From Pseudonocardiales bacterium (GTDB taxonomy: Bacteria; Actinomycetota; Actinomycetes; Mycobacteriales; Jatrophihabitantaceae), in contig JAVEES010000130.1 in the NCBI GenBank assembly GCA_030840285.1, positions 1 to 38,626 on the forward strand: 38,626 nt of DNA, given 5' to 3'. The first letter of the stretch is position 1, and every line of letters begins with the position of its first letter. The position numbers were made by a program, and so were the translations under genes. Shown in pieces: positions 3,046-37,728 of this stretch. The notes under the pieces are model-generated. The model made no database searches, was not told where the DNA came from, and saw only the letters and a list, made by a program, of their open reading frames with translations.

Positions 3046-3107
3046 CGTCGCAGGCCTGCGACTCCCAGGCCGTCACGCCAGTCGCTCTGCCCTAGCGGCG
3101 CTGCTCT

Positions 3108-3157
3108 GCTTTTGGCGTGGAGTCCGGGTATTCACGGACTCCACGCCAAAAGCGGGG
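3108..3157. repeat. Perfect intergenic palindrome (AAAAGCGGGG family)
   Basis: Two perfect 18-bp arms (GCTTTTGGCGTGGAGTCC and its reverse complement) flank a 10-bp spacer, followed by GGGG. The right half recurs at the left edge of the window (1-32). Arms of the same style but different inner sequence occur at 21626-21690 and 22016-22082. The element lies between the DUF5593-like remnant and ricT. The ricT ORF in the supplied track reads back into it, which argues for the later start at 3184. Confidence 0.85.
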
Positions 3158-3183
3158 TAGATCTGGGGGTTAGGCTCACCCTT

Positions 3184-20482: not shown

Positions 20483-20558
20483 GCCGCCTTAGCTCAGTCG
20501 GCAGAGCGTCTCACTCGTAATGAGAAGGTCTAGGGTTCGATTCCCTAAGGCGGCTCCA
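20483..20558 (+). tRNA. tRNA-Thr (anticodon CGU)
   Basis: The cloverleaf is complete: acceptor GCCGCCT pairs with AGGCGGC, the D arm is TAGCTCAGTCGGCAGAGC, the anticodon stem TCTCA/TGAGA holds a CTCGTAA loop giving anticodon CGT, and the T arm is TAGGGTTCGATTCCCTA. The 3' CCA is encoded. It reads ACG threonine codons, which are common in high-GC genomes. Confidence 0.97.
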
Positions 20559-21568: not shown

Positions 21569-21625
21569 GGATGTCACGCTAGGGCCTCCGTCCTCGATGG
21601 CATACCGCCGTGCCGGCGCCTGCCA

Positions 21626-21690
21626 CGCTTTGGGCGTCTGGAAATCCCCCAAATTGGCCTCCGCGGGGGTAGTTCCAGACGCCCAAAGCG
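21626..21690. repeat. Intergenic palindrome, copy A (CGCTTTGGGCGTCTGGAA arms)
   Basis: Perfect 18-bp arms flank a 29-bp spacer with CCCCCAAATTGG and CCGCGGGGG. Copy B at 22016-22082 shares arms and spacer, with a few substitutions. The outer ends (CTTTGG...CCAAAGCGGGG) resemble the palindrome at 3108-3157. It lies upstream of the methyltransferase gene. Confidence 0.88.
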
Positions 21691-21707
21691 GGGGTTGGGG
21701 GCAGCGC

Positions 21708-21983: not shown

Positions 21984-22015
21984 GGTCCCTAGTCTGCACT
22001 TCCGCTTGCCCTGAA

Positions 22016-22082
22016 CCGCTTTGGGAGTCTGGAAATCCCTCAAATTGGCATCCGCCGGGGTAGTTCCAGACGCCCAAAGCGG
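22016..22082. repeat. Intergenic palindrome, copy B
   Basis: This copy has 19-bp arms with one mismatch (CCGCTTTGGGAGTCTGGAA against TTCCAGACGCCCAAAGCGG) and the same spacer as copy A apart from a few changes. It lies upstream of the small hypothetical gene and downstream of the SRPBCC gene. Confidence 0.88.
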
Positions 22083-22119
22083 GGGGTTGAGGGTCGGGGC
22101 AGAGCGGGGGGTTGAGGGT
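22078..22119. repeat. 17-bp direct repeat next to palindrome B
   Basis: AGCGGGGGGTTGAGGGT occurs at 22078-22094 and 22103-22119, a 25-bp period. The first copy starts inside the right arm of palindrome B, so the end of the element seems to have been duplicated. Confidence 0.8.
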
Positions 22120-23725: not shown

Positions 23726-24874
23726 TCAATGCACGGTCGTGGCATCGCTGTAACGCAATAGCGCCGCCACTCCATTGGGCAGGTAATCGTGGGCGTTCGG
23801 GGTGATCACCAAATCCCCGCCGGACTCCGCGGCGGCCCGCAGGATCGCCGCGTCAAGGCGGTCCTCGACGAGCTCCCGCACGCCGAGGTCGATCAGCTGG
23901 GACCGCTCTCGTGCCAGCTGGGTGGGTTCGGGACCGATCCACGCGGTCAGCGTCGAGGACGGGTCGTCGGAGAGAACCACCGTCTGGGCCTGCGCCCGCT
24001 GCAGGGCTTGCAACACCGGCTCGATTCCGGCCGCAGCCCGGTTCGCCCGGCCGAGCTGTTCCTGCAGGCTTTCCAGAAGCTGCCGGCGCTGCTTCGACGC
24101 CTGCCGCAGGACCGCCGCCCGCACTGCCTCGTCGAGCGGTTCTTGTGCCGCGCCCGGTGCCCTGCCGCCTTCGGCGACGTTATCGAGCTGCACACCAGGC
24201 GGCAGCAGCCGTCGCAGGTCATCGCTTATCAGGGCGCGGGCGCGTTCATCGCCGGCGATGACGACCAGCTCCGCGGCGACTCGCGCGACCTGCCGAGCCG
24301 ACTCCGCTGCGACGTCCCCGGCATTCCTGGCCCAGGAGTTCTCCACCCTCCGCTGAAAATGCGCTTCGGACCAGTCATTGGTGGCCGTCTTGTGCAGCGG
24401 AAAACTCACCTCGCCCTGGACGACCGAGTGCTCGGGCCTGCGCTGCTGGGCTGCGATCTCCGACGATGCGGCATAGATATCGGCACCCTTGCGGTCAGCC
24501 ACGACGAGCACGTAGGCAATATCGGGCGCTCGCTGCGCGAGGTAGGGAACCAGGTGCGGTAGCGGAGCCCAGCGGGCGAGTTCCCTTGCGGGCGGCTGGG
24601 GAAGCACCTCGTCGAAGCAGAGGGTGCCATCAGCTGCCGCGACCAGGACCTGCCCGCGCCTGCCTGCCGCGTCGCGGTGCGCGCCGCCCTTGGCCGCGAT
24701 GGCCGTGACCGATCGGGGGTCGGCCCCCGCATCGAGCAGGCTCTGGCGAAGGCCACGCCAGCGCAACTCCACTTCGGCAGAGCCACGCTCGTCGGCATGG
24801 GTGGCATCGAAGTACACGGTCGCAAACGGGCCGCGGTGCTGGTAGATGGAAGTGATCGCGGGCGGAATCGGCAC
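23726..24874 (-). CDS. Rv2629/Balon-like protein (Vms1/baeRF, eRF1-Pelota fold)
   Basis: The 382-residue protein matches the mycobacterial Rv2629 family in order: an N-terminal domain (SIYQHRGPFATVYFDATHADE, then ELRWRGLRQSLLDAGADPRSV), a middle strand set (HLVPYLAQRAPDIAYVLVVADRKGADIYA) and the QGEVSFPLHKTATNDWSEAHFQRRVENSWARNAGD core. A helical DEAVRAAVLRQASKQRRQLLESL segment and an eRF1-like C-terminal domain (GVRELVEDRLDAAILRAAAESGGDLVI, then GVAALLRY) follow. Rv2629-type proteins are related to Balon, a ribosome hibernation factor that binds the A site. The classical GGQ of release factors is absent. It could alternatively be a Vms1-like peptidyl-tRNA hydrolase. The leader carries degenerate 15-bp repeats. 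Confidence 0.85.
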   Translation of the reverse strand: MPIPPAITSIYQHRGPFATVYFDATHADERGSAEVELRWRGLRQSLLDAGADPRSVTAIAAKGGAHRDAAGRRGQVLVAAADGTLCFDEVLPQPPARELARWAPLPHLVPYLAQRAPDIAYVLVVADRKGADIYAASSEIAAQQRRPEHSVVQGEVSFPLHKTATNDWSEAHFQRRVENSWARNAGDVAAESARQVARVAAELVVIAGDERARALISDDLRRLLPPGVQLDNVAEGGRAPGAAQEPLDEAVRAAVLRQASKQRRQLLESLQEQLGRANRAAAGIEPVLQALQRAQAQTVVLSDDPSSTLTAWIGPEPTQLARERSQLIDLGVRELVEDRLDAAILRAAAESGGDLVITPNAHDYLPNGVAALLRYSDATTVH

Positions 24875-24908
24875 GGTGGTCAGCTCCTCTGCTCGTTAGC
24901 GCTAGCTC

Positions 24909-24981
24909 TGTCCCGGCTTTCTCGGTACCAGGATTCTCAGCGCCGGAATTCTCGACACAGGACTCTCGACATGGAGGTCTC
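24909..24981. repeat. Five degenerate 14-15-bp tandem repeats in leader of Balon-like gene
   Basis: Consecutive units each end in CTC and contain a GGA/GG-TTCTC-type core (for example GGTACCAGGATTCTC). The units are 15, 15, 15, 14 and 14 bp long. They end 35 bp upstream of the ATG at 24874. Confidence 0.6.
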
Positions 24982-25422: not shown

Positions 25423-26028
25423 TCACGTCAGTAGCAGCACGTCGAGGGTTCGCGGGCCGTGCACGCCTTCTACCCGCTTCAACTCGATATCGCTGGTAGC
25501 GCTCGGTCCGCTGATCCAGGTGAGGGGACGGGTCGGGTCCAGCACGGCGATCGCGTCCGGGACGCTCGCGAGGATCTGCTCGGCCCGCACGACCACCAGG
25601 TGGTAGTCCGGTATCAAGCTCAGCGCGCGTCGCCCCTGGCCAGGTCCGGCATCGAGCACGATCGTCCCCGTCTCGGCAACCGCGACCGCGCAGGTGGTGA
25701 CCACCCCGGCCGCGCTGTCCAGCTCCGTGATGCCGAGTGGCTCTCGCAGTTGCCCGATGGTGGGAAGCCAGCTCTGGTCGAACCCGTCCGGGACGATGAC
25801 CTGTGCGATGCCCCGTGCGGCCAGGATCGCCTCGATCTGATCGGGGGTTCCGCGGTGCACGGTGGCTCGATAGTCGACGAGCCGGTCGACGAACAGTTCC
25901 ACGTCGGCCTCGGTTGTGCCGGCCGTTCGGTAGTTGCGCACGATCGGCTGCGGGGACGGCCGGTCGCTGGTCGCCCGGCGGATCCGGTCGAGGATCTCGG
26001 CCCTGGCGGTTGCTGTGACGTCACTCAT
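25423..26028 (-). CDS. lutC: LutC/YkgG family LUD-domain protein, lactate utilisation
   Basis: The 201-residue protein is a stand-alone LUD domain: ARAEILDRIRRATSD at the N-terminus, then VDRLVDYRATVHRG, a strand set around GIAQVIVPDGFD, the conserved AVAETGTIVLDAGPGQGRRALSLIPDYHLVVV and the C-terminal GPSATSDIELKRVEGVHGPRTLDVLLL. LutC works with LutA and LutB in an NAD-independent L-lactate dehydrogenase complex that oxidises lactate to pyruvate. It overlaps the lutB stop by 8 bp. No membrane segment or signal is present, so it is cytoplasmic. The whole set faces the GntR regulator. Confidence 0.95.
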   Translation of the reverse strand: MSDVTATARAEILDRIRRATSDRPSPQPIVRNYRTAGTTEADVELFVDRLVDYRATVHRGTPDQIEAILAARGIAQVIVPDGFDQSWLPTIGQLREPLGITELDSAAGVVTTCAVAVAETGTIVLDAGPGQGRRALSLIPDYHLVVVRAEQILASVPDAIAVLDPTRPLTWISGPSATSDIELKRVEGVHGPRTLDVLLLT

Positions 26029-27472
26029 CGCGGCTCTTCTCCCGCTCGGTCCACCAGTCGCGGAAGCTCTGCGCGGGCGCTGCCGGCAGGTCTCGCGAAG
26101 AGATCCAACTCGACAGCGGCGGCGGCAGCAATCGCCATCCCCGCAAGGGCTTGCTCAGTCGGACGGCTCGCAGCGCGCGAGTCCACCGGCGCGAGTCGCG
26201 CATGGTCCAGGAGGCCGCGGCCATGGCGGCCTGCTCGGGAGACGGCAGACGGTGCTGCTCGCGCTTGTCATCGACCACCCGGGCCCGCAGGTGAACGAGC
26301 ATCGAAGGAATGTCGATGGCCACCGGGCAGACGTCGTAGCACGCACCGCACAGGGTGGATGCGTAGGGCAGGGACGGGTTGCGATCCACCCCGGTGAGCT
26401 GCGGGCTCAACACCGCACCGATCGGGCCGGGATAGACCGAGCCGTAGGCATGCCCGCCGGCCCGTTCATAGACCGGGCAGACGTTGAGGCACGCCGAACA
26501 GCGGATGCAGCGCAGCGCACTGCGGCCCTGCGGATCGGCCAGCGTGGCGGTACGGCCGTTGTCCAGCAGCACGAGGTGAAATTGCTGGCCTTCCACCGCG
26601 CCCGTCCACATCGAGGTGTACGGATTCATCCGCTCACCGGTGGAGGACCTCGGAAGCAGCTGCAAGAACACCTCGAGATCGCGCCAGGTCGGAACGAGCT
26701 TCTCGATGCCCATCACCGTTATCAGCGTCTTCGGCAGGGTAAGGCACATCCGGCCGTTGCCCTCGGATTCCACCACGGCCAAGGTGCCGGTCTCAGCGAC
26801 CGCGAAGTTGGCCCCGCTGATCGCAACCTCGGCGGTGAGAAACTTGCGCCGCAGGTGGCCGCGCGCCGCCTCGGCAAGGGCCGCGGGAACGTCGGTCAAC
26901 GCGGGATCGACGTCGGGCATCTCGCGCAGGAAGATCTCGCGGATCTCGCTGCGATTGCGATGGATGGCAGGTACCAGGATGTGGCTCGGCTTGTCATGGC
27001 CCAGCTGCACGATGAGTTCGGCCAGGTCGGTCTCGAACGCCTCGATGCCGGCTTGTTCGAGCGCCTCGTTCAGGCCGATCTCCTGGGTGGCCATGGACTT
27101 GACCTTGACGACCTCGCTGGCCCCGGTCGCCTTTACCAGATCCGTGACGATGCGATTGGCCTCTTGCGCGTCGCGAGCCCAATGGACGGTGCCACCGCGA
27201 GCTGTGACCTGCTGCTCGAGTTGAAGGAGGTAGCGCTCGAGGTTGGCGAGCACGTCATCCTTGATGGCTGCCCCGGCCGCGCGAAGCTCTTGCCAATCCG
27301 GCAGCTCGCTGACGACGGCCGCCCGCTTGCCACGAATTGTGTGCGTGGCGGCGCCGAGGTTTCGTCGTAGCTGAGCATTGCCGACGCTGAGCCGCGCCGC
27401 CTCTGGGAAGGGCTGTTCGCCATCGAGGTTGCCGCCGGTGAGCGAGGCCGCCGGCATACCGAGGAAGGTCAC
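26021..27472 (-). CDS. lutB: LutB/LldF family iron-sulfur electron transport protein
   Basis: LutB carries a LUD domain (about residues 65-300, with EVVKVKSMATQEIGLNEAL and ISGANFAVAETGTLAVVESEG) and a ferredoxin-like part with two 4Fe-4S motifs: CIRCSACLNVCPVY and CGACYDVCPVAI. A helical C-terminal tail ends in RDWWTERE. It passes electrons from lactate oxidation towards the respiratory chain. The GTG start at 27472 has a purine-rich GAAGGAG upstream. The length of 483 residues is normal, and all eight cysteines of the two clusters are present. It lies 70 bp after lutA; that gap holds a short direct repeat. Confidence 0.96.
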   Translation of the reverse strand: MTFLGMPAASLTGGNLDGEQPFPEAARLSVGNAQLRRNLGAATHTIRGKRAAVVSELPDWQELRAAGAAIKDDVLANLERYLLQLEQQVTARGGTVHWARDAQEANRIVTDLVKATGASEVVKVKSMATQEIGLNEALEQAGIEAFETDLAELIVQLGHDKPSHILVPAIHRNRSEIREIFLREMPDVDPALTDVPAALAEAARGHLRRKFLTAEVAISGANFAVAETGTLAVVESEGNGRMCLTLPKTLITVMGIEKLVPTWRDLEVFLQLLPRSSTGERMNPYTSMWTGAVEGQQFHLVLLDNGRTATLADPQGRSALRCIRCSACLNVCPVYERAGGHAYGSVYPGPIGAVLSPQLTGVDRNPSLPYASTLCGACYDVCPVAIDIPSMLVHLRARVVDDKREQHRLPSPEQAAMAAASWTMRDSRRWTRALRAVRLSKPLRGWRLLPPPLSSWISSRDLPAAPAQSFRDWWTEREKSRDE

Positions 27473-27517
27473 GTCCTGCTCTCCTTCGTGGCTTGGAATC
27501 CTGCGGAGCGATCGAGG

Positions 27518-27550
27518 CTGCTCATCACGTCGCGACTGCTCATCACGTCG
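27518..27550. repeat. 15-bp direct repeat at the lutA-lutB junction
   Basis: CTGCTCATCACGTCG occurs at 27518-27532 and 27536-27550. The second copy contains the lutA stop codon. It looks like a recent 18-bp tandem duplication. Confidence 0.75.
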
Positions 27551-28268
27551 AGGCCAAGATCTCGGCCAGGTGCACCGTTCGCACCCCGACCTTGAGACGC
27601 GACAGGCCGCCGCCGATGTGCATCAGGCAGGACGAGTCGCCGGCCGCGCACACTTCGGCGCGGGTCTGCAACACGTTCTGCATCTTGTCGGCGAGCATCG
27701 CGGTCGAGACGTCCGGGTTCTTCAGGGCGAAGGTGCCGCCGAACCCACAGCACGATTCGGCGTCCGGAAGCTCGACGAGATCGATCCCGCGTACCTGCCG
27801 GAGCAGCTGCAGCGGCCGGTCCCCGACGCGCAGCAACCTCAGCGAGTGGCAGGTGGGGTGGTAGGTCACCCGGTGGGGGTAGTAGGCGCCGACGTCGGTC
27901 ACCTCGAGCACATCGGTGAGAAATTCTGAAAGCTCATACGTGCGCGCGGCGATCTCGGCTGTGCTCGCGATCAAGGACGCGTCGCCGATGCTGCTCGCCA
28001 CCTCGCCGTGCTGGTGCCGGATGGACGCCGTGCACGAGGCGCTCGGCGCCACGATCGCGTCGTAGCCGGCGAAGGCGTCCACGTGGTTGCGAATCAGCGG
28101 TACTGCCTCGCGGGGATAGCCGGTATTGATGTGCATCTGACCGCAGCAGGACTGTTGCAGGGGCACCTCGACCTCGTGCCCCAAGCGTTCGAGCAGCCCC
28201 ACTGTCGCCTTGGCGACGTCGGGATAAAGCCCGTCCGCCAGGCACGTGATGAAGAGCGCGACGCGCAT
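27543..28268 (-). CDS. lutA: LutA/LldE family Fe-S oxidoreductase, lactate utilisation
   Basis: The 241-residue protein has the two CCG domains that hold an Fe-S cofactor: EVPLQQSCCGQMHINTGYP early and LPDAESCCGFGGTFALKNPDVS late, plus APSASCTASIRHQH and YHPTCHSLRLL. I start at ATG 28268 because AGGAGG lies a few bases before it and the family begins MRVALFITCLxD; the track start adds eight residues inside the operator region. It is the first gene of lutA-lutB-lutC. The promoter region is shared with the divergent GntR gene and holds two palindromic operator-like sites. Confidence 0.96.
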   Translation of the reverse strand: MRVALFITCLADGLYPDVAKATVGLLERLGHEVEVPLQQSCCGQMHINTGYPREAVPLIRNHVDAFAGYDAIVAPSASCTASIRHQHGEVASSIGDASLIASTAEIAARTYELSEFLTDVLEVTDVGAYYPHRVTYHPTCHSLRLLRVGDRPLQLLRQVRGIDLVELPDAESCCGFGGTFALKNPDVSTAMLADKMQNVLQTRAEVCAAGDSSCLMHIGGGLSRLKVGVRTVHLAEILAST

Positions 28269-28280
28269 TGCCACCTCCTG

Positions 28281-28291
28281 TGGTCCGACCA
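28281..28291. promoter_or_regulatory. FadR/LldR-type operator, site 1
   Basis: TGGTCCGACCA matches the FadR-subfamily operator form TNGTNNNACNA. It lies 12 bp upstream of the lutA start codon, next to its ribosome binding site, so binding would block lutA expression. Confidence 0.75.
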
Positions 28292-28300
28292 TAGAGTATG

Positions 28301-28333: not shown

Positions 28334-29050
28334 GTGAGTGCCGATATCCGGCAACGGACGCATGAGCTCGTCGTCCGGCACGTGGAGGATGAGCTGCGGG
28401 CGGGGCGCCTGCGGGTGGGCAGCCGGATGGATGGGGAGCGCGCGCTCGCGGAATCCCTCGGTGTCAGCCGCTCCTCTGTTCGCGAGGGCATCCGGGTACT
28501 CGAAGCGATGGGCCTGATTCGCACCGCTGTCGGAAGCGGGCCTGATTCCGGCGCCGTAGTCGTGGCGGACGCTGCCGTCGGCATGACTTCCGCCCTCAGG
28601 CTCCATCTCGCGTCGAGCAGCCTGCCCGTCGAGGACATCGTGCAAACCCGGCTCTTGATCGAGACGTGGTCTGTGCGTGAAGGGGCGCGCCGCGCGGACC
28701 AGGCCGCACTCCGGATCGCCGGATCCTTGCTCGACGCGGCGGACGACCCGGATATCGACGCCGAGCAGTTTCACCTGCTCGACGCTGAATTCCACGTCGC
28801 GCTCGCGCACGCGACGGGCAACGATGTGGTGGCGGCGATCATGACGTCGCTGCGCGGCGCCATCCACGGTTATGTGATGGCAGCGGTGCCCGAGCTACCT
28901 GATTGGCCCGCCATGGCTCGAAAGCTGCGCAGGCAACACCGCAACCTGCTCGCGGCGATCCAGGACGGTGACGGCGAGCGAGCCGCCCAGCTCGTCGAGG
29001 CTCACATCAACGGCTTCTACCGGGCAACCTTGCCCGCAGTTACCCGGTAG
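28334..29050 (+). CDS. FadR-subfamily GntR regulator, probable lactate operon repressor
   Basis: The N-terminal winged helix (about residues 1-70) shows RTHELVVRHVEDELRAGRLRVG and the GntR recognition part ERALAESLGVSRSSVREGIRVLEAMGLIRT. The remaining 160 residues form an FCD ligand-binding domain (DIVQTRLLIETWSVREGARRA, then LDAEFHVALAHATGNDVV, then HRNLLAAIQDGDGERAAQLVEAHI) with the expected metal-site Asp and His residues. Its divergent position and the two nearby TGGTNNGACCA palindromes make it the likely regulator of lutABC, with lactate as the probable inducer, as for LldR. The start is GTG 28334. A perfect 13-bp hairpin overlaps its stop codon. Confidence 0.93.
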   Translation: MSADIRQRTHELVVRHVEDELRAGRLRVGSRMDGERALAESLGVSRSSVREGIRVLEAMGLIRTAVGSGPDSGAVVVADAAVGMTSALRLHLASSSLPVEDIVQTRLLIETWSVREGARRADQAALRIAGSLLDAADDPDIDAEQFHLLDAEFHVALAHATGNDVVAAIMTSLRGAIHGYVMAAVPELPDWPAMARKLRRQHRNLLAAIQDGDGERAAQLVEAHINGFYRATLPAVTR

Positions 29051-30551: not shown

Positions 30552-31520
30552 ATGCCGGTAGCAGGAGCTGACCTCGTCTCGCGGGCCGCGGCGGAACTGT
30601 ATTCGCTGGACCCTTCGGCCTTCATCGACCGCCGCGCCGCCCTGGCCACGGCGGCCAAGGAACAGGGCGAGGCGAACGCCGCCAAGCAGATAGCCGGACT
30701 GCGTAAGCCGACGGTGAGCGCGTGGACGGTCAACAGCCTTGCTCGCGAGCATCCCGAACTCGTGGAGGAACTGGTCGAGTTGGGCCAGGAACTTCGAGCC
30801 GCCCAAGAAAGTCTTGACGGCGGGCAGTTGCGAGATCTCGCGCCGCGCCGCCGGGCCATGATCGACGCACTGGCGCGTCAGGCCTTCTCCGCGACCGGAC
30901 AGCGGCCCAGCGCGGCGGTGCAGGAGGAGGTGACGGCCACGCTGTCCGCGGCGCTCGCCGATCCAGAGACGGCAGAGGGCCTGCGAGGGGGCATGCTCGT
31001 CAAGGCCGTGCGATGGGACGGCTTCGGCCCGGTCGGGCGCCCTGACCTCGCAGTGGTGCCCGATCCCAAGCCCCAGGGCCGTCCAGTCGAGCGACGGCCG
31101 GACCCGCGGGGTGCGGACGAGCGGCGTTCGGGTGGGTTTCCTGCCGAAGAGGGACGCGTAGCGCGGCTTTCGCAGCGGGACCGCGCCGAGCAGGATCGTG
31201 CCGAGCAGGACCGTGCCGAGCAGGACCGCGCCGAGCAGGACCGTGCCGAGCAGGACCGTGCCGAGCAGGACCGCGCCGAGCAGGGCCGGTCGGAGGATCG
31301 CCGCAGGTTGCGCGCCGGAGCCGAGCGTGGCGTTGCGGTAGCGACAAAAAAGCTTGCCCGAGCCCGGGACACGGAGCGTTCGAAGGCTGAGCGGCTGGAG
31401 GAATTGCAGGCCCGCATCGACGAAGCCAGGCGGGCTCTGGACGAGGCCCGTTTCGAAGTGCGCCGGAGCCAGGGTGAGCTGGCCGAAGCCGAACAGGAAC
31501 TCGCCGACCTGGCCGACTGA
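30552..31520 (+). CDS. Coiled-coil hypothetical protein with seven DRAEQ repeats
   Basis: From ATG 30552 the 322-residue protein has a conserved-looking N-terminal half (LVSRAAAELYSLDPSAFIDRRAALA, then KQIAGLRKPTVSAWTVNSLA), known to me from uncharacterised actinobacterial proteins. The middle then holds seven perfect DRAEQ units, and the last 80 residues are strongly heptad-like (ERLEELQARIDEARRALDEA). It is probably a cytoplasmic coiled-coil protein; no catalytic motif is seen. The longer track start (30471) adds a stretch without conservation. The repeat DNA is almost perfect at the nucleotide level, so the array is young and may vary in copy number. Confidence 0.78.
   Translation: MPVAGADLVSRAAAELYSLDPSAFIDRRAALATAAKEQGEANAAKQIAGLRKPTVSAWTVNSLAREHPELVEELVELGQELRAAQESLDGGQLRDLAPRRRAMIDALARQAFSATGQRPSAAVQEEVTATLSAALADPETAEGLRGGMLVKAVRWDGFGPVGRPDLAVVPDPKPQGRPVERRPDPRGADERRSGGFPAEEGRVARLSQRDRAEQDRAEQDRAEQDRAEQDRAEQDRAEQDRAEQGRSEDRRRLRAGAERGVAVATKKLARARDTERSKAERLEELQARIDEARRALDEARFEVRRSQGELAEAEQELADLAD
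31179..31283 (+). repeat. Seven 15-bp in-frame tandem repeats (DRAEQ)
   Basis: Seven units of GACCGYGCCGAGCAG-type sequence follow each other without a gap, differing only at a third-codon position. They keep the reading frame of the coiled-coil protein. Confidence 0.92.
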
Positions 31521-31640: not shown

Positions 31641-31715
31641 ACCGACGAAGGCGGGGGCGGGACGGGGGTCCGCCGGTTGGTATAGCCAGGATGCGTCATG
31701 ACGCGTCGAGGGCAT

Positions 31716-31825
31716 CCCAACCGGCGCTAACAGGCACCCCACCCTGCGCTGACGAACAGCCCAACCGGCGCTAACAGGTACCCCAACCTCCGCTGGCCGA
31801 CACACCAACCCGCGCTGGCAGGATC
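31716..31825 (+). repeat. Five imperfect 22-bp tandem repeats upstream of YibE/F operon
   Basis: Five units of exactly 22 bp share CCAACC, CGCT at positions 10-13, and mostly end in AC. Units 1 and 3 differ by one base. The array stops 5 bp before the GTG of the YibE/F gene, so it forms the leader of that operon. A related array follows the operon at 35253-35319. Confidence 0.88.
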
Positions 31826-31830
31826 GCAAC

Positions 31831-33015
31831 GTGGCTGCTCACTCGCATTCGCGTCGCCCAGGGCCCGCCGATGAGGCTGGCCACCGCCGCGCGCTGGTGG
31901 TGGCCGTCGCCGTCGTCAGCGCAGCGGTGCTCGTTGGGCTGGTGTTGCTGTGGCCAGCGCGCCCATCCACCGTCCGGCTTGGATCGGCTGAGGTCGCGCA
32001 CGGCACCGTGACGGCCACCCGGCTGCAGGACTGCGCGGTCGCTCAGCGCTCCTGCACGGTCGTCGTGACGGTGCGGGTCACCGACGGCCCCGATCGTGGA
32101 CGCGACACCCAGCTGACCTTTCTGCCCGGCGCGACCGACCCCAAGCTAGAGGTCGGCGAGCATATTCGGATGGGCCGGCAAGGTTCGGGTGCGGGAGCGG
32201 TCTACGCCTTCGCCGATGTCGAGCGCCGCGGACCACTGCTGTTGCTGGCTGCCGTCTTCGTGATCGTGGTATTGGTCACCGGGCGGCTGCGCGGGCTGGC
32301 GGCCATGCTCGGATTGGCGATCGCCGGCGCGGGCCTGGTCTGGTTCGTCCTGCCCGCCTTGCTGGCTGGCGAATCGCCAACCCTGGTCGCGCTGGTCGGC
32401 GGTGCTGCCATCACGCTGGCAGTGCTGCCGCTCGCCCATGGCGTGTCCGTCCGGACGGGTGCAGCGCTCATCGGAACCCTGGCTGGCATGGCTATCGCCG
32501 CGCTTCTGGCGGCGGTTTCGGTCAGCGCGCTGCGGTTCACCGGAACCTCGAATGAAGAGGGCACCATGCTGCAACTGCTCGGCTCTCGGTCCTCGGTGTC
32601 AGGACTGCTGCTCTGCGGTGCGGTCATCGGTGCGATCGGCGTGCTCAACGACGTCACAGTGACCCAAGCCTCGGCGGTTTTCGAACTCGCGGCCGCGGAC
32701 CCGGCCGCGAGTCGGCGCCGCGTGTTCTCCGCGGCGATGCGGATCGGCCGTGACCACATCGCGTCCACCGTGTATTCGCTGGTTTTCGCCTACGCGGGGT
32801 CTGCCCTGCCGCTGTTGCTGCTCTTCGTGATCACGGGACAGTCCGTGGGTGACGTGTTGACCGGTGACGCGCTCGGTCCTGAGATCGCGGCGGGGTTGAT
32901 CGGCGCCATCGCCCTGGTGCTGGTGGTGCCGCTGACGACCTTCACAGCAGTGCTGCTGATCTCGAACCGGCGCCTTCGCCCTAGTGCCTCCGACGTTGCT
33001 CAGTACGCTGATTGA
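31831..33015 (+). CDS. YibE/F family multi-spanning membrane protein
   Basis: The 394-residue protein begins with a basic tail and one membrane helix (ALVVAVAVVSAAVLVGLVLLWP), then a strand-rich extracytoplasmic domain (about residues 45-130). A set of about seven further helices carries the YibE/F signature (GLLLCGAVIGAIGVLNDVTVTQASAVFELAAADP and MRIGRDHIASTVYSLVFAYAGSALPLLLLF). The molecular role of the family is not settled; transport has been suggested. The start is GTG 31831, 5 bp after a 22-bp repeat array. Its TGA is followed directly by the GTG of the mycothione reductase gene, so the three-gene operon is tightly coupled. Confidence 0.92.
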   Translation: MAAHSHSRRPGPADEAGHRRALVVAVAVVSAAVLVGLVLLWPARPSTVRLGSAEVAHGTVTATRLQDCAVAQRSCTVVVTVRVTDGPDRGRDTQLTFLPGATDPKLEVGEHIRMGRQGSGAGAVYAFADVERRGPLLLLAAVFVIVVLVTGRLRGLAAMLGLAIAGAGLVWFVLPALLAGESPTLVALVGGAAITLAVLPLAHGVSVRTGAALIGTLAGMAIAALLAAVSVSALRFTGTSNEEGTMLQLLGSRSSVSGLLLCGAVIGAIGVLNDVTVTQASAVFELAAADPAASRRRVFSAAMRIGRDHIASTVYSLVFAYAGSALPLLLLFVITGQSVGDVLTGDALGPEIAAGLIGAIALVLVVPLTTFTAVLLISNRRLRPSASDVAQYAD

Positions 33016-36165: not shown

Positions 36166-36188
36166 GTGTGCACCGTACTAACCTGTAC

Positions 36189-36314
36189 CCGTCCCCGCGG
36201 GAGCCCATCCACATCGGGCTGAGAGGGTGGCAGTGCCGTCGGCGCCTGGCGTCCGGCGGCGGGGCCTCCGACCGCTTGAACCTGATCCGGCTAATACCGG
36301 CGAAGGGAGAGGTG
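36189..36314 (+). promoter_or_regulatory. TPP (thi-box) riboswitch
   Basis: The thi-box is complete: GGGAGCCC, then CTGAGAGGGTGG at 36219, a variable P3 arm of about 50 nt, and the 3' motif GAACCTGATCCGG (CCTGAT at 36281), CTAATACCGGCGAAGGGAG. It lies on the plus strand directly before the cytX start. The ribosome binding region (GAGAGGTGG) follows the aptamer with no room for a separate terminator, so control of translation start by TPP is the simplest model. It confirms the thiamine role of the downstream genes. Confidence 0.96.
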
Positions 36315-36321
36315 GTCACAC

Positions 36322-37728
36322 ATGTCCACTGTCACCGAGCACAACAAGATCGCCGATCACCCCGGGCCGGTCGCCCGAAAGGCCGAAGCGCCCACCACGT
36401 TGACCGAGGCGGCTCCCCGCACCCTCGGGCTGCTCGACCAGTTCGGCTTCTGGGGAAACCTCGGGGTCAGCCTCTTCGGCCTGACCACCGCCAGCACCGT
36501 GATGTACGCGGTGCTCGACAAGCCACTGCCAGTCGCTGGGACGATCCTCGCGCTCGTCGTGGGCACGCTGCTCGGCGGCGCGATTCTGGGAATCTCACTC
36601 ATGCTCGGTGCCCGCAACGGGGTGCCCGCCATGGTGTTGTTGCGAGGCGTGCTCGGGGCAAAGGCCTCCTACTTGCCCACCGCCCTCAACGTTCTGCAGA
36701 ACCTCGGCTGGGGGACGTTCGAAATCGTGCTCATCGCCGAGAGCCTGCGGTCGGTCGTTCACGACAACCTGCCGCGCTGGTTGTGTGTGCTGATCGCGGG
36801 AGCGATCACGACCGCCCTGACGATCCGGCCGCTGGGATCGATCCGGGTACTGCGCAAGTACGTCACGGCGCTCGTCGTGCTGGCAACGGTCGTGCTCGCG
36901 ATCGGCCTGTTGAACCGGCCGATCCCGCATGTCGCGGGCAGTTCGTGGGGCGGCTTCTGGCTCGGTGTGGATGCGGTGGTAGCGGTGTCGATCTCCTGGG
37001 TCCCGTTGGGCGCGGACTATTCGCGCCATTCCCGGACCGAGCGCGCGGCGTTCCTCGGAGGTTTCGTCGGCTATGGCGCGACGCAGATCGCCTGCTACCT
37101 GGTCGGCTTGATCGCGCTCTTGCAGGTGCTCGCGGACCCGTCGAAGATCTTCGATCTCTACCTGAGCCTGCCGCTGGGCACTATCGCGCTGGTCATACTG
37201 ATCCTTCGCGAGACCGACCAGAGCTTTGCCAACACCTACTCGACCGCCTTGTCGATCCAGAACCTGCGGCCGCACTGGGATCGTCGGGTGCTCTCGGTGG
37301 CGATCGGGACGCTGATCACGCTCGCCGCGCTGAAGATCCAGATCGGTGACTACTACAACTTCCTCGCCCTGATCGGCGCGGTGTTCGTGCCGATGTCCGG
37401 CGTCCTGGTGGCGGCGTGGGTGCGTACCCGGGGCGATGGGCTGGACTTTTCGGAGACGGCGCCGACGCGTCCCGGCATGCTCACCGCCTGGCTCGCCGGT
37501 TTCATCAGCTACCAGCTTCTGAATCCCGGTTTGCTGGCGCACTGGTCATCGTTCTGGAGCCGGATCGGGGATGCGCTGCACACCACGGGGCACGTCTGGC
37601 TATCGGCATCGGTGACGTCGTTCGTACTGGCGCTGCTGGTTGCCCTGCCGTTTGCGGGCAACCGTCCGGGAACCAAGCGCGGAAACGGAAAACTTGACGA
37701 TGAGGATCAAGTAGCGTTGAAACCGTGA
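36322..37728 (+). CDS. cytX: NCS1 family transporter, probable hydroxymethylpyrimidine permease
   Basis: The 468-residue protein has about twelve membrane segments and the NCS1 pattern: an N-terminal tail with PRTLGLLDQFGFWGNLGVSL, then NGVPAMVLLRGVLGAKASYLPTALNVLQNLGWGTFE, VSISWVPLGADYSRHS and DQSFANTYSTALSIQNL. NCS1 members move nucleobases and related rings with Na+ or H+. Direct control by a TPP riboswitch and the neighbouring thiD identify this one as CytX, importing HMP or a related pyrimidine for thiamine synthesis. The ATG lies 7 bp after the purine-rich end of the riboswitch region. Its stop overlaps the LLM gene start (GTGA). Confidence 0.92.
   Translation: MSTVTEHNKIADHPGPVARKAEAPTTLTEAAPRTLGLLDQFGFWGNLGVSLFGLTTASTVMYAVLDKPLPVAGTILALVVGTLLGGAILGISLMLGARNGVPAMVLLRGVLGAKASYLPTALNVLQNLGWGTFEIVLIAESLRSVVHDNLPRWLCVLIAGAITTALTIRPLGSIRVLRKYVTALVVLATVVLAIGLLNRPIPHVAGSSWGGFWLGVDAVVAVSISWVPLGADYSRHSRTERAAFLGGFVGYGATQIACYLVGLIALLQVLADPSKIFDLYLSLPLGTIALVILILRETDQSFANTYSTALSIQNLRPHWDRRVLSVAIGTLITLAALKIQIGDYYNFLALIGAVFVPMSGVLVAAWVRTRGDGLDFSETAPTRPGMLTAWLAGFISYQLLNPGLLAHWSSFWSRIGDALHTTGHVWLSASVTSFVLALLVALPFAGNRPGTKRGNGKLDDEDQVALKP

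Follow-up and report, generated by a model that had tools for sequence, protein, structure and literature searches.

The question raised by this locus is whether a gene of a Jatrophihabitans-like actinobacterium encodes a ribosome hibernation factor of the Rv2629/Balon type, or one of the other relatives of the release factors. Rv2629 and MSMEG_1130 bind the ribosomal A site and lower protein synthesis in vitro by a factor of about 15, and Balon homologues occur in 23 of 27 bacterial phyla (PMC10901736). According to a survey of 2019, the baeRF families are for the most part inactive relatives of release factors, and several of them are linked to hibernation genes (PMC6514570). The gene lies in a stretch of 38,626 nucleotides, hereafter the window, from the draft genome of a Pseudonocardiales bacterium.

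The Gene and Its Domain Layout

The coding frame consists of 382 codons and a stop on the minus strand (23726–24874). We confirmed that it is real: because the protein is kept in related genomes, mostly at near full length, a chance open reading frame is ruled out. The interval given in the initial annotation (23726–24981) therefore contains a real gene, but its 107 nt up to 24981 are leader and are not coding in this frame. An in-frame extension into the leader was considered and rejected, as the frame stays open for just a few codons upstream (389 versus 382 amino acids). The features are as follows.

23726–24874, minus strand: coding sequence of the Rv2629-type Balon/baeRF family 2 protein, 382 aa, GTG start
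24884–24890, minus strand: AGAGGAG, Shine-Dalgarno-like, before the GTG start (from the sequence)
24906–24965, minus strand: leader with an imperfect 15-nt direct repeat in about four copies, lineage-specific
24521–24874, minus strand: N-terminal domain, about residues 1–118 (model and alignments; boundary approximate)
24797–24799, minus strand: His26, in the loop that follows strand 1 (REHP in Psychrobacter Balon); the window protein has no HP dipeptide
24149–24520, minus strand: middle domain, about residues 119–242 (Pfam, residues 121–276, and model; boundary approximate)
24365–24412, minus strand: equivalent of the GGQ loop, residues 155–170, EVSFPLHKTATNDWSE (profile alignment to eRF1 and column counts)
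23729–24148, minus strand: C-terminal Pelota/L7Ae-like domain, about residues 243–382 (weak L7Ae match and model; boundary approximate)
23870–23968, minus strand: C-domain insert, residues 303–335 (alignments and model; EF-Tu-hairpin role from PMC10901736)
22707–23546, minus strand: SDR oxidoreductase, co-directional downstream neighbour (profile matches)

In the alignments and the model, the N-terminal domain, whose counterpart in Rv2629 and Balon is the decoding-centre domain, carries a GPFA[ST]VY strand. The middle domain is of the baeRF_family2 or eRF1 domain 2-like type, that is, the domain of the peptidyl-transferase centre, and the C-domain insert probably corresponds to the region of the beta-hairpin with which Balon contacts EF-Tu.

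Family Identity and Predicted Fold

The initial annotation held that the protein follows the Rv2629 layout, and this was borne out by profiles, a sequence match in the PDB, Foldseek and the tree, which together strongly support homology to Rv2629 and Balon. The NCBIfam model NF052289 (Rv2629_fam_RHF, “Rv2629 family ribosome hibernation factor”) matches residues 10–375 with an E-value of 4.9e-70, and Pfam baeRF_family2 (PF18844) matches with an E-value of 5e-35, with weaker matches to acVLRF1 (E 4e-11) and baeRF_family10. Searched as a single sequence, the protein has one PDB match, 8v9k_z, the chain of Rv2629 bound to the M. smegmatis ribosome (residues 13–377, E 9.2e-25). A PDB profile search with our alignment A1 gave 8v9k an E-value of 4e-119; this value is circular, as A1 contains Rv2629, and we set it aside as evidence. 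It should be mentioned that the NF052289 score, 236.5 bits, is below the equivalog cut-off of 320 bits, and because of this we call the protein a homologue of the Rv2629 type and do not certify it as a functional equivalent of Rv2629. The model is matched by all 21 relatives in the alignment; the cut-off is passed by L025, L026, L036 (Actinokineospora) and L070 (Nocardia), and most other individually scored members fall below it.

An AlphaFold2 model built with 36 sequences (mean pLDDT 90.6, pTM 0.85) has the three-domain aeRF1-like fold, with the lowest certainty at residues 141–170, around the GGQ-equivalent loop. The best Foldseek match is 8v9k_z (TM 0.81/0.85), and the top six matches are Balon-family chains only: Rv2629 is followed by MSMEG_1130 and three Psychrobacter Balon chains, and then come the release factors of archaea and eukaryotes, and Pelota. 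The C-domain insert aligns with that of Rv2629 and is modelled confidently. The loop at residues 155–170, where pLDDT is low, lies in a place comparable to that of the bL27 trap and lasso loop. A structural comparison with Balon and Rv2629 had been proposed as a check on the annotation, and a model lacking the ribosome-contacting loops had been named as a finding that would overturn it. This did not come about: the model keeps each of the three domains as well as the C-domain insert.

The Loops at the Catalytic and HP Positions

A check for the strings GGQ, NIKS and HP found none of them in the window protein, and for the GGQ loop the alignment agrees. The profile alignment to eRF1 is ungapped around GGQ and places Trp168 in the column of the catalytic Gln. 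In the order-level alignment, Rv2629 included, 19 of the 21 sequences have Trp in this column, often as GGW; in a wider actinobacterial set the count is 11 of 36. It is possible, if rather doubtful, that the conserved Trp serves as a dedicated contact, either plugging the peptidyl-transferase centre or stacking on the CCA end of the P-site tRNA; in that case the Rv2629 branch would have a defined switch of its own from release to hibernation.

The HP motif of P. urativorans Balon is likewise absent from the window protein, which has His26 in the equivalent loop. Rv2629 also has no HP dipeptide within residues 12–365. The loop after the first strand reads THADE in the window protein and SHDTL in Rv2629, so that the His is common to both but the motif is not. 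Balon (8rd8) has a single HP dipeptide in the stretch compared, within the REHP after its first strand, and this REHP is presumably the published HP motif. Because Rv2629 binds the ribosome without HP, the literal HP motif is no defining feature of the Rv2629 branch.

Phylogeny and Distribution

In a quick maximum-likelihood tree with Balon as the outgroup, the window protein groups with members of its own taxonomic family, and the Rv2629-type clade around them (34 rows, SH-aLRT 97) leaves out MSMEG_1130 and Balon; several branches of this tree are long and its deep order is uncertain. The source genome (86% complete) has one copy of the gene, and at an E-value of 1e-5 it gave no match of the MSMEG_1130 or Balon type; elsewhere it has a gene with a long-form HPF C-terminal domain. 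Of 61 related genomes, among them its own, 27 have the protein, mostly at full length, with 47–51% identity among the matches from the same taxonomic family, and the nearest sequences come from Jatrophihabitans and from metagenome-assembled genomes labelled “Pseudonocardiales bacterium”. The Rv2629 model is matched in 29 of the 61 genomes, and its cut-off is passed in five. The spread is patchy, the protein being present in some near-complete genomes of the genus and family and absent from others. In a sample of the class, 103 of 297 genomes have a match at an E-value of 1e-12 (with a divergent Streptomyces member of the family as the query), and a plasmid collection gave three matches in total, all distant and actinobacterial.

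The protein had been recommended for comparison as a Balon homologue outside the mycobacteria. It does come from outside them, but non-mycobacterial members of the Rv2629 type are already known and common, as the 103 of 297 genomes and the survey of phyla (PMC10901736) both indicate, so that this value is small. The protein belongs to a known and common kind, of which it is an ordinary member, and the picture of ribosome hibernation is unchanged by it. What it offers is an Rv2629-type sequence that folds well, is moderately diverged and comes from a Jatrophihabitans-like lineage. Taken together with its relatives, it lets one see which features of the branch hold (the GPFAxVY strand, the loss of the catalytic Gln and, for the majority of members, the C-domain insert) and which one drifts (the HP motif).

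The insert (window-protein residues ~305–335) is missing in seven short relatives (L073, L078, L079, L083, L087, L095 and L150), as read from their C-terminal 110 residues; those named belong to Streptomyces, Sciscionella and Yaniella. In the class sample, G133 and G341, two genomes of one family, have this close type and, at another locus, a second match. The Balon paper emphasises that the hairpin contacting EF-Tu is conserved (PMC10901736), which makes the insert-less relatives natural tests of its role.

Genomic Neighbourhood and Leader

The gene was described as lying upstream of a general-stress type SDR. A same-strand SDR does follow after a gap of 179 nt, its closest models being the PRK06701/PRK06128 SDRs, but the link is mostly not conserved among relatives. 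Among the loci compared for this link, a close SDR homologue (50% identical) was directly adjacent only in Actinokineospora xionganensis (L036), where it is divergent; more distant SDRs adjoin the gene in L074 and L069. The SDR was accordingly rejected as a functional partner. The upstream genes on this strand encode a DUF6343 protein and a lut-like cluster; downstream, besides the SDR, there is a polyketide-cyclase-like protein. In congeners (L096, L098 and L033), a ChaB-domain gene follows the homologue instead, and in other lineages the neighbours vary again (e.g., DUF2795, DUF6328 and hemerythrin). No hibernation gene is adjacent. No conserved stress operon was seen across the loci compared, which fits the variety of gene contexts that has been reported for Balon (PMC10901736). 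The lutABC-like lactate utilisation cluster occupies 25423–28292 of the window, with a divergent GntR/FCD regulator at 28334–29050.

The leader had been called an unusual repeat. Its 15-nt periodicity (29 of 45 positions) was equalled by none of 1000 dinucleotide shuffles and so exceeds chance, but it is weak and is not a conserved feature of the family: across the 38-kb sequence, periodicity of this strength is seen in about 2% of windows, TRF did not report the repeat, and its 15-nt unit is absent from the leaders of relatives. A regulatory RNA was rejected, as there is no Rfam family, the folding is not significantly above that of shuffles (z −1.2) and relatives do not share it. We take the repeat to be a lineage-specific sequence of no assigned function. 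A promoter and terminator scan yielded nothing clearly above chance.

The window has several other repeats and elements. A palindromic, REP/MITE-like element occurs in two 83-nt copies that are 88% identical (21619–21701 and 22010–22092), and another palindrome lies at 3101–3160, with a half copy at 1–32. About 7.7 copies of the 15-nt unit AGCAGGACCGTGCCG (92% matches), which may be a coding repeat, are found at 31174–31288, and about 4.8 copies of a 22-nt unit at 31711–31816, just upstream of a gene called at 31831. A TPP riboswitch (Rfam RF00059, 61 bits; 36187–36325) ends at the start of the gene 36322–37728, and a tRNA-Thr (CGT) gene is located at 20483–20558.

Proposed Function and Alternatives

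Homology to Rv2629 and Balon, the three-domain fold, the absence of the catalytic Gln and membership in the Rv2629-type clade are directly supported by the observations above. Given that A-site binding and translational inhibition in vitro are reported for the homologues Rv2629 and MSMEG_1130, an A-site hibernation factor is the best explanation, and the window protein is very probably a catalytically dead, Rv2629-type ribosome hibernation factor of the aeRF1 superfamily. Its most likely job would be to occupy the A site and silence translation under stress. Upon starvation or another stress, the protein would enter the A site independently of mRNA; its N-domain would touch the decoding centre, its middle domain would set the Gln-less loop beside the peptidyl-transferase centre, and the C-domain insert could hold EF-Tu-GDP, leaving a ribosome that is silenced yet preserved. 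Ribosome binding, the contact with EF-Tu, translational inhibition and a role in survival are all suggested by the solved homologues. The gene with the HPF domain elsewhere in the genome also speaks for this reading. Against it we counted the score under the cut-off, the missing HP motif, the lack of an adjacent hibernation gene and an SDR that is mostly not conserved.

A protein of this superfamily and architecture might instead act as a Pelota/Dom34-like rescue factor, which would bind stalled ribosomes without catalysis and aid recycling rather than hibernation. Its middle domain is inactive, as in Dom34, the next structural matches after the Balon family are eRF1 and Pelota chains, and rescue or shutdown roles were proposed for the family in the 2019 survey (PMC6514570). 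Yet in fold and sequence the protein is nearer to factors with demonstrated hibernation-type binding than to Pelota, and the C-domain insert is that of Balon-type proteins, so we consider rescue unlikely. Somewhat less probable still is a reading in which an Rv2629-type protein has diverged, its function having become specialised or been lost in this lineage, and is patchily kept in Jatrophihabitans-like bacteria; the patchy distribution in near-complete genomes and the score below the equivalog cut-off would fit it, whereas the full-length frame, the conserved core, the confident fold and the 47–51% identity across the taxonomic family, with no signs of decay, speak against it.

Least probable of all, and hardly to be expected, is a peptidyl-tRNA hydrolase of the Vms1/acVLRF1 type, in which the catalytic Gln sits in a loop motif GGxSQ or GxuQ (PMC6514570). 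The Pfam match to acVLRF1 is in its favour, but the baeRF_family2 match is far stronger, and the acVLRF1 NCBIfam model does not match the window protein at an E-value of 0.001. Closer similarity to Vms1-type hydrolases with an intact catalytic Gln had been named as another finding that would overturn the annotation; this position of the loop carries Trp168. Because the release-factor Gln is replaced in this way, the Vms1 and release-factor alternative is unsupported.

Comparison with Known Systems

With aRF1/eRF1 and Pelota/Dom34, the window protein has the superfamily and the order of domains in common, but the structural match is lower (query TM 0.48 or less) and NIKS and GGQ are absent. Balon of Psychrobacter urativorans (8rd8/8rdv/8rdw, NF052287) has the same fold (query TM 0.63–0.66) at 14–15% identity; both proteins are without GGQ and NIKS, whereas the HP motif is present in Balon alone. 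MSMEG_1130 of M. smegmatis (8v9j/8v9l, NF052288), also of the Balon family, again has the same fold (TM 0.73/0.75 with 8v9l), with about 18% identity and a place on a separate branch of the tree. Rv2629 of M. tuberculosis (8v9k_z) differs in that its loop reads AGW, where that of the window protein reads NDW, and in its gene context, the window gene having the lut-like cluster and DUF6343 upstream and the SDR downstream. At about 26% identity and TM 0.81/0.85, Rv2629 and the window protein are alike in length, in their three domains, in the region of the C-domain insert, in the Trp that stands for the catalytic Gln and in having no GGQ.
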